A stretch of DNA of 64,000 nucleotides from Gammaproteobacteria bacterium (GTDB taxonomy: Bacteria > Pseudomonadota > Gammaproteobacteria > Arenicellales > Poriferihabitantaceae): the NCBI GenBank assembly GCA_028066695.1, contig JALCBG010000001.1:24047-88046 (forward strand), written 5' to 3'. Position numbers and translations under genes: made by a program. This document shows positions 21,036 to 29,707 of this stretch, in pieces (position 1 is the first letter of the stretch; each line of letters opens with the position of its first letter). The notes under the pieces are model-generated. The model saw nothing but the letters and a program-made list of their open reading frames with translations, was not told the origin of the DNA and made no database searches.

Positions 21036-21044
21036 TGCTACAAT
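21036..21044 (+). promoter_or_regulatory. Extended -10 element (TGCTACAAT) before the DddP-like gene
   Basis: TGCTACAAT ends 8 bases before the ATG at 21053. A start 7 bases after the -10 would give a transcript with a leader of about 2 bases, so the DddP-like gene may be leaderless. Confidence 0.5.
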
Positions 21045-21052
21045 CGCGCCGC

Positions 21053-22252
21053 ATGAACGCCGCGCCGCGCAAGCCAAATTTCAGCGAGGCCGACCTGGCC
21101 GAGTTGCGCGCCTACCGCCTCAAGCGCCTGCGCGAAAAAATGCGGGAGGCCGATGTCGCGCTGTGCGTGCTGACCAACCCGGTCAACCTGCGCTACGCGG
21201 CCGACTTTCGCGAATACCAAATGTTTCAGTCGCACATTCCGACCAACTACCTGTTCGTGCCGGCCGAGGGGGAGCTTTGCATGCACGGCTCGTGGCACCG
21301 CAACCTGCCGGCGGTCGCCGACTACCGGCCTTCCGATTTGCTGACCGTTTTTGACGGCGGTTTTGATTTGCGGCGCAACAACGCGCGCTTCGCCGGCAAC
21401 CTGAATGCGTTTCTCAAAGAGCGGCACTTATACGAGCGCGGCGCGCGCGTCGCGCTGGAGCGGTTTTTGCCGGGAACGGCCGCCGCGGTCGCGGACACCG
21501 GGCTGCGCGTGTGCGACGCGGAAGTGCTGGCCGAACAGGCGCGCGCAATCAAATCGGAAATGGAATTGCGCTGCATGCGCCATTCCATCGCGGTCGCCGA
21601 ATTTGGCATCGCAACAATGCTGGAGCGCCTGAAACCCGGCGTCACCGAGAATCAACTCTGGTCGGTGCTGCACCAGGTGAACATTGAAAACGACGGCGAC
21701 TGGATAGACGGGCGCGTGCTGAGTTCCGGCGCGCGCACCAATCCGGGGCTGCAGGAAGCCACCGATAAAGTCATTCAGGCCGGCGAACTGGTCGCGTTTG
21801 ACACCGACATGATCGGGCCGTTCGGCTACTGCGCCGACATCTCGCGCACCGTGCTGTGCCGGCCGGCGGTGCCGAACGCGCAGCAAAAACGCGCATACCG
21901 CCACGCCTATGACGAAGTGCATCACAATCTGGAATTGTTGCGCCCCGGCGCCGCTTTCGCCGAACTCAGCGAGCGCGGATTTGCGCGCGGCGCCGAGTTC
22001 ACCGCGCGGCGCTACCCGTGCATGATGCACGGCGTTGGCATGTGCGACGAATATCCGAAAATCTTTTACCCGGAAGACTGGGAACGCGACGGATATGACG
22101 GCGCGCTTGAGGAAAACATGGTGATGTGCGTGGAGAGTTACAGCGGCTCGGAGCGCGGCGGCGAGGGCGTGAAACTGGAGCAAGTGGCGCGCATCACCGC
22201 CGGCGGCTGTGAATTGCTGTCGCACTACCCGTTTGAACAATGCCTGCTGTAA
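21053..22252 (+). CDS. DddP-like M24-family metalloenzyme (candidate DMSP lyase)
   Basis: The 399-residue protein has the pita-bread fold of M24 metalloproteins (creatinase/Xaa-Pro peptidase superfamily). Candidate metal ligands are D250, D252 and D262 (AFDTDMIGPFGYCADIS), H326 (MHGVGMCDE), E361 (CVESYSG) and E376 (KLEQVAR). These match the iron ligands of Ruegeria DddP as I recall them (D295, D297, D307, H371, E406, E421) at a constant offset of 45. D332 and Y321 fall at the positions of its proposed catalytic D377 and of Y366. DddP splits dimethylsulfoniopropionate into dimethyl sulfide and acrylate. Family membership is seen; the activity is inferred, because DddP-like proteins of other function exist. 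It overlaps hemH by 13 bases. Confidence 0.75.
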   Translation: MNAAPRKPNFSEADLAELRAYRLKRLREKMREADVALCVLTNPVNLRYAADFREYQMFQSHIPTNYLFVPAEGELCMHGSWHRNLPAVADYRPSDLLTVFDGGFDLRRNNARFAGNLNAFLKERHLYERGARVALERFLPGTAAAVADTGLRVCDAEVLAEQARAIKSEMELRCMRHSIAVAEFGIATMLERLKPGVTENQLWSVLHQVNIENDGDWIDGRVLSSGARTNPGLQEATDKVIQAGELVAFDTDMIGPFGYCADISRTVLCRPAVPNAQQKRAYRHAYDEVHHNLELLRPGAAFAELSERGFARGAEFTARRYPCMMHGVGMCDEYPKIFYPEDWERDGYDGALEENMVMCVESYSGSERGGEGVKLEQVARITAGGCELLSHYPFEQCLL

Positions 22253-23241
22253 CGGCCGAAACCGAAACGCGCGAACGCATCGGCGTGCTGCTGACCAACC
22301 TCGGCACGCCGGATTCCTGCGCGCCCGGCGATGTGCGCCGCTACCTGCGGGAGTTTTTGTCCGACCGGCGCGTGGTCGGGCTGCCGCGAATTTTGTGGCT
22401 GCCGCTGCTGCACGGCGTCGTCCTCAACACCCGCCCGCGCAAATCCGCGAACGCCTATGCAAAAATCTGGCGCGACGACGGCTCGCCGCTGCTGGTGTTT
22501 TCGCGGATGCAGCAGCGCAAACTGCAGCGGCGCTTTGATGAAAGCGCCGTCGTGGTGGAACTGGGCATGCGCTACGGTAATCCGTCCATCGCCGCCGCGC
22601 TGGAAAAACTGCACGCGGCCGGCGCGCGCAAAGTGCTGGTGCTGCCGCTCTATCCGCAGTATTGCTCGGCGACCACCGCTTCCACTTTTGACGCGCTCGG
22701 CGCCGCGTTCGCGCGCCGCTGGCATCTGCCGGCATTGCGCTTCGTTGACCACTACCACGATCACCCGAAATACATCGCCGCGCTGGCGCGCAGCGTCCGC
22801 GCACACAATTCCGATGGCGTGCTGGTGATGTCGTTTCACGGCATTCCGGAAGCCTTCGCCGACGCCGGCGACCCCTACCCGGCGCAATGCAAAACCACCG
22901 CGCGCCTCCTCGCCGATGAACTGAAATTGGCCGACGACGAATGGCGCCTGAGTTTTCAGTCGCGATTCGGCCCGGCGCGCTGGCTGCAGCCCGGCACCGA
23001 AGAAACCCTCGCCGCGCTCGCGCAGGACGGCGTACAAAGCGTGCGCGTCATCTGCCCGGGCTTCAGCGCGGATTGTTTGGAGACGCTGGAGGAAATCGCA
23101 ATCGGCGGCCGAGAAACCTTTCTGCAAGCCGGCGGCCGGCATTTCCAATATATTCCCTGCATGAACGACGAAGACGCGCACATAGACGCGCTGCAAGAAA
23201 TCATCCGCGCCAACCTCGGCGACTGGCTGGCGCCGGCATGA
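22240..23241 (+). CDS. hemH: Ferrochelatase
   Basis: HemH inserts ferrous iron into protoporphyrin IX, the last step of heme synthesis. The 333-residue protein has the N-terminal GVLLTNLGTPDSC, a central VLVLPLYPQYCSATTASTFDA and the catalytic His in VMSFHGIPEAFAD. CPGFSADCLETLEEI is present near the end. The gene overlaps the DddP-like gene by 13 bases and the cbiX gene by four (ATGATGA), so all three are probably co-transcribed. Confidence 0.96.
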   Translation: MPAVTAETETRERIGVLLTNLGTPDSCAPGDVRRYLREFLSDRRVVGLPRILWLPLLHGVVLNTRPRKSANAYAKIWRDDGSPLLVFSRMQQRKLQRRFDESAVVVELGMRYGNPSIAAALEKLHAAGARKVLVLPLYPQYCSATTASTFDALGAAFARRWHLPALRFVDHYHDHPKYIAALARSVRAHNSDGVLVMSFHGIPEAFADAGDPYPAQCKTTARLLADELKLADDEWRLSFQSRFGPARWLQPGTEETLAALAQDGVQSVRVICPGFSADCLETLEEIAIGGRETFLQAGGRHFQYIPCMNDEDAHIDALQEIIRANLGDWLAPA

Positions 23242-23728: not shown

Positions 23729-25870
23729 ATGCAAGCAAAACAAATCAATTTCCTCAAATTTCTCAAGGACTCGCCCCGGTTTGCAGTTCCGATTTACCAG
23801 CGCACTTACAGTTGGACCACGCAACAGTGTCGGCAACTGTGGAATGACATTTTGCGCACTGGTCGCGAGCCTGGCGACAACGCCCACTTTGTCGGCTCTA
23901 TCGTCTACATCATGGAAGATGAGTTCCAGGTCGCCAGTCATACCCCGCTGTTCGTCATTGACGGACAGCAGCGCCTGACCACTGTGCTGCTCATCTTGGA
24001 GGCATTAGCACGACACATTGGCGACCAAGAGCCTGTGCCTGGCTTTTCCGCCAAAAGGTTGCGCGAGTACTATCTGCTCAACCACCTGGAAAAAGACGAG
24101 CAACGCTTCAAACTGAGTCTTACCCAAACCGACAAGGAAACTTTCCTTTCGCTGATGGAGGGAGGCCCCCAGGCGCCCGCAAACGCCTCCGTTCGCGTCA
24201 AAGACAATTTTGCGTTTTTCCAAGAAAACATCGCCAACTTGGGCAATGACCTTGCCGCTTTCTGCAGGGGGCTTGCCGGGCTGGTAATTGTCGACATTTC
24301 CCTCCACCACGGGAAAGACAATCCACAGTTGATTTTCGAGAGCATGAACTCGACCGGGCTTGATCTTAGCCAGGCCGACCTCATCCGCAACTTCGTTCTG
24401 ATGGGTCTGGATTACGATCTCCAGGAAAAAATCTACACCGAACAGTGGCGCCCTATGGAGATTGAGTTTGGCCAGGAAGCGTATGGAAAGCATTTTGACG
24501 CATTCATGCGTCACTATCTCACGCTGAAAATGCATGAAATCCCGAAGATCAGCCAAGTGTACAAAAGGTTTAAGGAGTACGCCAACAGCGCGAAGATAAA
24601 GGAAAACGGAGTCGAGGCGCTGGTGGCGGATATCCGCGCCTACTCCGGCCACTACTGCGCCATGGCGCTTGGCAAAGAGCAAAACAAGGCATTAGCGAGC
24701 GCTTTTGCCGACTTTGTCAAACTCAAGGCCGAGATCGCGTTCCCCTTCCTGCTGGAACTCTACGGCGACTATGCATCCGGCAGTTTGTCGGCGGAAGATT
24801 TCGAGCGCGCGGTTCGCTTAGTGGAAAGTTATGTCTTGCGCCGCGCAATCTGTGAAATCCCGACGAACTCAATGAACAAGACTTTTGCGAATTTCGGCCG
24901 CGTCTTGAAAAAAGAGCGCTATCTGGAAAGCATTCAGGCGCACTTTTTGTTGTTGCCGACCTACCGGCGGTTCCCGGCGGACGACGAATTTCGCAAGCAA
25001 ATCAAGGAGCGGAATATTTACACTTTTCGCTCACGAACCTACTTGCTCGGCAAGTTGGAAAATCACGGCCACAAAGAGTTCGCCAACATCAATGAATACA
25101 GCATCGAGCACATCCTGCCTCAGAACAAGAATCTTTCCCCTGAATGGAAAGAAATGCTTGGAGAAAACTGGCAGGAAGTTCAAAAAACCTGGCTGCACAC
25201 CCTCGGCAACCTCACGCTGACCGGCTACAACTCCGAATACAGCGACCGCTCATTTCTTGAAAAACGGGACATGAAGAACGGGTTTGGCCAAAGCAAGTTG
25301 TACCTGAACCGGGACCTTGGGTCGCTGGACGTTTGGAACGAGCAGGCCATTCAAAACCGGGCCGCAGAATTGGCGGACACCGCCGTCAAAATTTGGGACG
25401 CCCCCCGCCTCGATGATGCAACACTCGCAACCTATAAGCGGGAAGAGGAACAAAGCAGCGTCCATACGATCGAGAAAGACCACCCGTACCTTGCGGCCGG
25501 AAGCGCCATGCGCCCACTGTTCGATGAGTTTGACCGTGAAGTGCGGGCATTTGACGAAAATGTCAAACAAGAAGTGCTGATGCACTACATCTCTTACAAA
25601 TCCGATTCCAGCATTGTGTCTGTGATACCGCAGGCAAAAGCCCTGCAACTCACGATCAACATTTCACATGCCGAAATCAGCGACCCTGCAGGCATGGCAG
25701 AATATGTGAGCGGCCGGGGCCATCTGGGGATTGGTGATACGCGGGCATATCTGCGCAACGAAGAAGACCTGCGCTATGTCATCGGCCTCGTGCGCCAGGC
25801 TTTCGAAAAGCAACTGGGCGACCCCGGACCGTTTGATGACGAGGTAGGCGACGAAAAAATCGAGACGTGA
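23729..25870 (+). CDS. GmrSD-type modification-dependent restriction protein (DUF262-DUF1524-DUF5655)
   Basis: The 713-residue protein begins with a DUF262 domain (VPIYQRTYSW near residue 20 and IDGQQRLTT at 77-85), a ParB-like NTP-binding module. The DUF1524 HNH nuclease follows near residues 455-520 (SIEHILPQNK then HTLGNLTLTGYN). A C-terminal DUF5655-like domain covers about residues 595-700. The first two domains form GmrSD-family restriction enzymes, some of which cut glucosylated hydroxymethylcytosine DNA of phages using nucleotide. The target here is unknown. Base composition is less GC-rich than neighbours, and TCGA occurs about 11 times against about once per 1-3 kb in core genes, indicating transfer. 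It converges on ftsB. Confidence 0.88.
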   Translation: MQAKQINFLKFLKDSPRFAVPIYQRTYSWTTQQCRQLWNDILRTGREPGDNAHFVGSIVYIMEDEFQVASHTPLFVIDGQQRLTTVLLILEALARHIGDQEPVPGFSAKRLREYYLLNHLEKDEQRFKLSLTQTDKETFLSLMEGGPQAPANASVRVKDNFAFFQENIANLGNDLAAFCRGLAGLVIVDISLHHGKDNPQLIFESMNSTGLDLSQADLIRNFVLMGLDYDLQEKIYTEQWRPMEIEFGQEAYGKHFDAFMRHYLTLKMHEIPKISQVYKRFKEYANSAKIKENGVEALVADIRAYSGHYCAMALGKEQNKALASAFADFVKLKAEIAFPFLLELYGDYASGSLSAEDFERAVRLVESYVLRRAICEIPTNSMNKTFANFGRVLKKERYLESIQAHFLLLPTYRRFPADDEFRKQIKERNIYTFRSRTYLLGKLENHGHKEFANINEYSIEHILPQNKNLSPEWKEMLGENWQEVQKTWLHTLGNLTLTGYNSEYSDRSFLEKRDMKNGFGQSKLYLNRDLGSLDVWNEQAIQNRAAELADTAVKIWDAPRLDDATLATYKREEEQSSVHTIEKDHPYLAAGSAMRPLFDEFDREVRAFDENVKQEVLMHYISYKSDSSIVSVIPQAKALQLTINISHAEISDPAGMAEYVSGRGHLGIGDTRAYLRNEEDLRYVIGLVRQAFEKQLGDPGPFDDEVGDEKIET

Positions 25871-25882
25871 TTGCCCCGCCGC

Positions 25883-28621
<2,739 letters not shown>

Positions 28622-28625
<4 letters not shown>

Positions 28626-29703
28626 AACAGTTTGCCGTTTTCCAGTTCGAGTCTGTCAATGGAATGCGCCACAAACTTCTCGTTGAGTTCATAGCCTACG
28701 CCGTTGCGCTGCTGCAGCGCGGCCGCAAGCAAAGTCGTGCCGCTGCCGCAAAACGGATCCAGCACGGTTTCGCCGACAAAGCTGTATGCCTTGATTAAGC
28801 GCGCCGGCAACTCCACCGGGAAAGGCGCAACATGTATGCGACCGTCACCGCTTTTCTCCGGCTTCATAGTCCACACATCCGAGTTCTTGATGGACAGCCA
28901 GAAATCCTTGTCCAGCTTTGACTGCTCTTTGTCGGCCGCGCTGACATGCGCGTATTTTTTTGCGCCGGATTTTTCCGGCTTGCTGAACTCCAGAATGAAT
29001 TCGTGCATGTTGTTCAGCAGAATCCCCCCGGGATACGGGTAAGTGCCAAAATGCGCGCGCACCCCATTGGTTTTGTGCCAAATGATGTCGCGCTTGAAGA
29101 CAAAGCCGGTCTCCTCGCACAAGTCCACCGACCGCCCGACCAAATTCAGCGTGCGGAAACTGTTTTTGTTTCGCACGGGAAGATTCATGATGTTGAGGAA
29201 AAACTTCCGCCCCGGCTGCAAAACACGGAATACTTCCTTCCAGACTTTCCCGATTTCAAAAAGCCAAGTGTCCAGATCATGGATGTTGCCCAGGTCTTTT
29301 TCGCTGTCCTGCGAATACATTTTGGCGTTGAAGTAAGGCGGAGAAGTCACCGCCAGATGCGCGCTGTCATCGCGCAACTCATTCATTGCGCGGGAGTCGC
29401 CAAGATACAATTCTTGCCGCGTTCCCCAAATGCACACTTCATTCTTCCGCGCCGTCTTCGCAGGATTCGGCGCCGCATTCCCGGGCGCGGCGGCATGCCC
29501 GTCCGCTTTTGCTTTTTTCACATCGGACAGCGCAAAGCGGTACTGTCCGCCGGCCGACTTGTAGCTTTTCAGCGCATTGCAGCGCACCAGTCCGTGCACA
29601 TCCCTGACCGTGACGCCGAGATACGCGGCGACTTCCCCCGCGGACAAATACGCCCGGGTGGAATAATCTTCCATTGCTTCCGCATCCACCGTGCGCGCCC
29701 CGC

Positions 29704-29707
<4 letters not shown>
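28622..29707 (-). CDS. DNA methyltransferase, beta class, probably N4-cytosine, with N-terminal HTH
   Basis: The 361-residue protein has the catalytic motif IV as TSPPYFN (residues 121-127) and the SAM-binding motif I as DPFCGSGTT (317-325). This is the beta-class order, and the SPPY form is typical of N4-cytosine enzymes, though N6-adenine is not excluded. Residues 19-66 form an excisionase/MerR-like helix-turn-helix ([18 protein letters not shown]). That domain might aid target recognition or regulate the operon. The start is GTG at 29707, overlapping the kdsA stop (GTGA), or ATG at 29674. Together with the next gene it forms a type II restriction-modification pair inserted between kdsA and eno. 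Confidence 0.88.

Follow-up and report, generated by a model that had tools for sequence, protein, structure and literature searches.

A DddP-like M24B metalloenzyme outside the DMSP lyase clade in a gammaproteobacterial housekeeping cluster

The window (the whole stretch of DNA that was analysed, 64,000 nucleotides) carries a DddP-like gene, P0001, which stands alone in a housekeeping cluster between a gene for a VWA-domain protein and hemH (Table 1). A TTG lies in frame with P0001 at 21035, and Pfam matches on the product are Peptidase_M24 (85.7 bits) and Creatinase_N (24.2 bits). The hemH frame and the 3′ end of P0001 share 13 bases. A similar GCTACCAT to the possible -10 element of P0001 precedes hemH in the same-genus genome G001, the likeness of the two being a resemblance only. 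The VWA gene adjoins ychF, an arrangement conserved in G001, and no NCBIfam match was found for its product. No DMSP-linked or DMSP-specific gene was recognised among the neighbours of P0001.

G001 keeps the order prs-rplY-pth-ychF-VWA-hemH-cbiX, in which the VWA and hemH matches are some 100 bases apart and P0001 is missing, and no P0001-type match was found in the same-genus genomes G001-G003. The gene was therefore either gained in the lineage of P0001 or lost in these relatives. Its GC content by codon position (0.66/0.43/0.80) is like that of the neighbour genes. Farther downstream, between cbiX and eno, lies a gene for a GmrSD-type restriction-endonuclease-like protein with a GC3 of 0.66 versus ∼0.80; it looks newly acquired, as the cbiX-eno interval of G001 gave no match to this gene. 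Between eno and kdsA, a DNA methylase lies beside a 373-aa protein that has no Pfam or PADLOC match, and the two are possibly a restriction-modification pair in which the partner is an unrecognised nuclease.

Table 1. Features of the P0001 locus and selected residues of its product (positions in the window).
Feature	Position	Strand	Remarks
VWA-domain protein, 704 aa	18911..21025	+	Pfam VWA; upstream neighbour of P0001
TACAAT, possible -10 element	21039..21044	+	8 bases before the P0001 ATG; resemblance only
P0001	21053..22252	+	intact ORF, ATG start, 399 aa; DddP-like M24B metalloenzyme
F58	21224..21226	+	position of RlDddP W95; N-domain block NMQLWNTHNP in DddP, EYQMFQSHIP in P0001
G232 (codon GGG, 21746-21748) and L233	21746..21751	+	positions of RlDddP W277 and F278
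D250, D252, D262	21800..21838	+	metal ligands, = RlDddP D295, D297, D307; from alignment and conservation
Y321, H326 (metal ligand), D332 (proposed catalytic base)	22013..22048	+	= RlDddP Y366, H371, D377; roles from PMC4108388
E361, E376	22133..22180	+	metal ligands, = RlDddP E406, E421; from alignment
hemH (ferrochelatase)	22240..23241	+	TIGR00109, 320 bits; downstream neighbour of P0001
GmrSD-type (DUF262) protein	23729..25870	+	between cbiX and eno
N6/N4-type DNA methylase with HTH domain, next to a 373-aa protein	27504..29707	-	between eno and kdsA

An earlier note on this DNA had aligned six metal ligands, a tyrosine and an aspartate of P0001 with those of Ruegeria DddP at an exact offset of 45 residues, using residue numbers from the literature. 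Global alignment with Ruegeria lacuscaerulensis DddP (RlDddP, 4RZY) bears this out: residues 198-398 of P0001 correspond to 243-443 of RlDddP, gap-free and at an offset of 45 throughout, and all eight residues are present in the intact frame at the positions given. The residue numbers of the note also agree with the roles assigned in RdDddP, where the corresponding residues are six metal ligands and two proposed catalytic residues (PMC4108388). D252 is the extra, sixth ligand, absent from ordinary M24 enzymes, and glycine occupies its position in the same-order M24 proteins L003 and L027. Both histidines of the M24 peptidases are replaced in P0001, by L233 and D332 in alignment with 3Q6D. P0001 thus carries the DTD...G...D motif with the sixth ligand and the Y...HGVG..DE.P motif without the peptidase histidines, which places it in the DddP-like M24B superfamily, and the sixth ligand together with the two replacements excludes an ordinary M24 peptidase.

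The AlphaFold model of P0001 (mean pLDDT 94.7, pTM 0.92) matches four DddP structures with TM scores of 0.91-0.92, as compared with ∼0.62-0.77 for prolidases, DoeA, creatinase and other M24 enzymes. The sequence match to DddP greatly exceeds chance: searches with phmmer retrieved RdDddP (4B28, E=1.7e-67) and RlDddP (4RZY, E=6.2e-66) well ahead of the best solved non-DddP structure (4e-12), with an overall identity to RlDddP of 34%. The Pita-bread fold and the five canonical M24 ligands are common to P0001 and M24B prolidases, aminopeptidase P and creatinase, from which P0001 differs in lacking both histidines and in possessing the sixth ligand. A generic peptidase identity was rejected for the missing histidines, and creatinase was set aside on the same grounds, its hydrolytic histidines being absent. 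Ectoine hydrolase DoeA (6TWK), which acts on a small osmolyte, has an M24 fold like that of P0001, but identity is ∼21%, the TM score is ∼0.7, and P0001 matches DoeA models at 36-48 bits only.

Relatives were pooled from 30 nearby genomes, a scan of 84,980 species genomes (80 named loci), plasmids, and an order-wide search with the DddP model. In a conservation alignment of 129 sequences (17 DddPs and 112 DddP-like non-DddP sequences, P0001 included), all eight residues are present in 17/17 DddPs; among the non-DddP sequences seven of the eight are found in at least 111 of the 112, and D332 in 105. Because nearly all of the non-DddP sequences carry them, the eight residues are not diagnostic of a DMSP lyase; the pattern marks the DddP-like superfamily. 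Of the two inferences drawn in the earlier note, kinship with DddP rather than with a generic Xaa-Pro peptidase holds, given D252 and the lack of peptidase histidines, whereas the step from residue pattern to DMSP lyase does not. One DddP-like clade, from Halobacillus, Alkalibacillus and Alkalicoccus (L075, L093, L094, L102, L103), together with L018, has glycine at the position of RlDddP D377 and keeps the metal ligands. W95 alone was rejected as a discriminator of DddP, since paralogues of the L002 type have this tryptophan too.

P0001 scores 293 bits against the NCBIfam DddP equivalog NF043017, short of the cutoff of 600. A PMSF maximum-likelihood tree of 66 rows, among which Oceanimonas DddP2 and the fungal DddPs are not included, places P0001 in a 37-row clade without any DddP (SH-aLRT 100), while the DddPs are grouped together (96) next to L024 (99). 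Forcing P0001 to group with the DddPs lowers the likelihood by 228.7 log units (AU p = 3.8e-87). The P0001 branch is a separate, large, DddP-free clade outside the DMSP lyases, which is the placement that the earlier note had named as evidence against its proposal. A literature search on DddP-like clades found nothing.

P0001 resembles DddP (RlDddP 4RZY/4S00/4S01, RdDddP 4B28) in its fold, six ligands, proposed Tyr and Asp, and gap-free C-terminal 200 residues, but differs at W277->G and in several N-terminal and local features. The N-terminal loop-helix appendix of DddP (∼40-50 residues) is absent, as the model match begins at profile position 48 and the open frame extends to 408 aa at most. 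Also missing are W95 (W95->F) and the glutamate of the GEWI motif (E261->D, giving GDWI), which are both present in 17/17 DddPs, although GDWI also occurs in the near-DddP L024, so that the GEWI criterion is weaker.

Genuine DddP does occur in this order. The order-wide search recovered proteins above 600 bits (scores 614-877) in 12 of 109 genomes, six of them in the family of P0001 (e.g., G014, 832 bits), and G009 has both a genuine DddP (616 bits) and, encoded by another gene, a P0001-type protein (319 bits). The genome of P0001 itself contains no DddP that passes the cutoff; its two family members are L002, at 375 bits, and P0001. Over the class, 6 of 276 sampled genomes carry a DddP above the cutoff. 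The suggestion in the earlier note that P0001 would widen the known distribution of DMS production is therefore not supported, as a functional DddP has already been described from a gammaproteobacterium, Oceanimonas doudoroffii (PMC6309047, PMC3338564, PMC10989825), and genuine DddP occurs in these 12 genomes.

The second paralogue, L002 (G000 contig C17, 1501-2640, minus strand), is 42% identical to P0001, lies closer to the DddPs in the tree, and keeps both W95 and W277. As read from the sequence, it adjoins enoyl-CoA-hydratase-like (CaiD-like), ADP-forming acyl-CoA synthetase-like, acyl-CoA dehydrogenase-like and SDR genes, and it is the stronger candidate of the two paralogues for a DMSP- or carnitine-like pathway. 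P0001 matches number up to 17 in one genome of its family, 8 in G009 and 12 in the same-order G023, many of them DddP-like. This unusual expansion of DddP-like proteins (G009, G011, G023 and others) suggests many related substrates.

At the position of RlDddP W277, tryptophan is found in all 128 other family sequences and glycine only in P0001. G232 is the sole departure of P0001 among 42 conserved columns; RdDddP departs at 3. A review mentions only a tryptophan and a tyrosine, and does not give the residue (W277 or W95) behind the reported contact with the sulfur of DMSP (PMC5395565). G232 may be a true substitution, the beginning of decay or an assembly error, and it could mean changed or lost activity.

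Information on function was sought in the gene neighbourhoods of relatives, where neighbour genes were identified by tblastn with seeds. Around 70 non-SAR11 relatives (769 kb of flanks), Rieske oxygenases occur at 16 loci and dimethylglycine-dehydrogenase (DMGDH)-like genes at 10, as compared with 2 and 1, respectively, in 800 kb of arbitrary DNA of related genomes; this control DNA is from other genomes and unmatched, and relatives within a clade are not independent. Rieske genes are present at 9/10 and DMGDH-like genes at 10/10 loci of SAR11 relatives. In these Pelagibacteraceae (L097, L100, L101, L104-L106, L109-L112) the DddP-like gene belongs to a conserved cluster with DMGDH-like, Rieske, SAM-methyltransferase, APS-kinase-like and PhyH-like genes, and betaine-homocysteine methyltransferase (BHMT) is found in several to most of the SAR11 clusters. 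The ABC-transporter ATPase (proV) was dropped as a context marker because it is common in control DNA.

Within the subclade of P0001, genes for an OpuAC-type betaine binding protein, a permease and an ATPase lie near Litoricola L045, together with one for a GbcA-like Rieske protein that scores 450 bits against the glycine betaine monooxygenase model (cutoff 670). A weaker GbcA-like Rieske gene lies near Amphritea L035, and FrhB-type genes lie near L033 and L036. In L113 and L114 of the same subclade, the 5-oxoprolinase genes pxpBCA are the immediate upstream neighbours. The annotated neighbours of plasmid relatives include a glycine betaine ABC transporter and members of the trimethylamine methyltransferase, hydantoinase/oxoprolinase and mandelate racemase families. 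The DddP-like proteins of Marinobacterium jannaschii (L033, 58% identity), Litoricola (L045) and Pseudomonas sp. MPC6 (L138), annotated as Xaa-Pro peptidase family proteins, are of the same family as P0001, full length and with the eight residues at no more than 58% identity; they lie in catabolic clusters (betaine transport, Rieske, PhyH/HalD-like, FrhB), whereas P0001 lies between the VWA gene and hemH and alone has G232. The genome of P0001 contains 9 Rieske-domain matches and ∼7 DMGDH-like genes.

On this evidence we somewhat favour the view that P0001 is a DddP-fold two-metal enzyme outside the DMSP lyases that acts on a betaine-like small carboxylate, and that it is not a peptidase and most probably does not cleave DMSP physiologically. 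The constant residue offset, the fold match and the replaced peptidase histidines point to the enzyme type, the tree and the NCBIfam score set it apart from DddP, and the Rieske, DMGDH-like, betaine-transport and oxoprolinase neighbours of its relatives, including those of SAR11 and on plasmids, suggest the substrate class. Six ligands would hold a two-metal centre, probably of iron by analogy, and the metals would bind the carboxylate of a small zwitterionic substrate, either a quaternary-ammonium acid of the betaine type or an N-substituted amino acid related to it. D332 may serve as the base with help from Y321, and an amine-bearing group would be eliminated or hydrolysed; the product would enter demethylation (Rieske oxygenase, dimethylglycine dehydrogenase) or cyclic-amide (oxoprolinase) catabolism. 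Against a betaine-type substrate, the VWA and hemH neighbours of P0001 are uninformative on betaines, its genome lacks pxpA, the unique G232 may point to changed or lost activity, the neighbourhood controls have the limits given above, and context differs among subclades, so that one substrate for all is unlikely.

A functional DMSP lyase, in which the metals would bind the DMSP carboxylate and D332 would take the alpha proton with release of DMS and acrylate, appears distinctly unlikely. All eight published residues are present, the nearest solved structures are DddPs, and an acuI/yhdH gene occurs in the genome, although yhdH-type genes are widespread; moreover, Fusarium graminearum DddP is functional at 32% identity to RdDddP (PMC4108388), so low identity is not enough to rule out this activity, and Oceanimonas DddP2 and the fungal DddPs lie outside the rows of the tree. 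These points are set against the non-diagnostic nature of the residues, the position outside the DddP clade, the subthreshold model score, the missing W95 and appendix, the glycine in place of W277, and the separate genes for genuine DddP in related genomes, along with the lack of a recognised DMSP-linked neighbour. An Xaa-Pro peptidase or other M24 peptide hydrolase, the name under which databases file the relatives, is highly improbable: the M24 fold, the five canonical ligands and the Peptidase_M24 match fit it, but the substrate and catalytic histidines are replaced, D252 is added, and RlDddP, likewise without both histidines, has no measurable Val-Pro activity (review PMC5395565).

The oxoprolinase-type neighbours raise a further alternative, a pyroglutamate- or hydantoin-linked hydrolase that opens or trims a cyclic amide or N-acyl amino acid also handled by oxoprolinase-type enzymes, which we regard as unlikely. 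In the two nearest relatives from the same family, the gene is immediately preceded by the 5-oxoprolinase genes pxpB-pxpC-pxpA; hydantoinase/oxoprolinase genes lie near L140 and L141 as well as near a true DddP in L144, and DoeA, which acts on a cyclic amidine, has the same fold. Yet pxp genes were found at 0/80 named loci, the hydrolytic M24 histidines are absent, and a family search found no pxpA in the genome of P0001, for which an oxoprolinase link within that genome was rejected. That P0001 is instead a copy in decay or without catalytic activity, acquired laterally and now missing an otherwise invariant tryptophan, seems very unlikely. The unique G232, the vacant syntenic site in G001 and the absence of matches in three same-genus genomes would fit such a history, as would the isolated position in a housekeeping cluster; but the frame is intact, 1/42 conserved columns deviates, which is fewer than in some DddPs, the codon-position GC is like that of the neighbours, and a single T-to-G assembly error would also give G232. 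It is possible, though rather doubtful, that the members of the P0001 clade and of its sister clades are lyases or hydrolases of betaines, with the dinuclear site of DddP put to use on quaternary-ammonium osmolytes, that DMSP lyase DddP is one derived branch that switched from nitrogen to sulfur onium substrates, and that G232 lets P0001 accept a bulkier substrate.

P0001 is not evidence of DMS production in its host bacterium, because it belongs to a separate branch and the neighbours of its relatives point to methylated nitrogen compounds (betaines). Counts of dddP in metagenomes serve as an indicator of DMS production. As this case shows, a large family of relatives, present in multiple copies, cannot be told from the DMSP lyases by the published catalytic residues, and residue checks or loose E-values will therefore overcount dddP. 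If the link to betaines is true, it would hint at the origin of DMSP lyase and would provide a function for a common family of marine bacterial enzymes.
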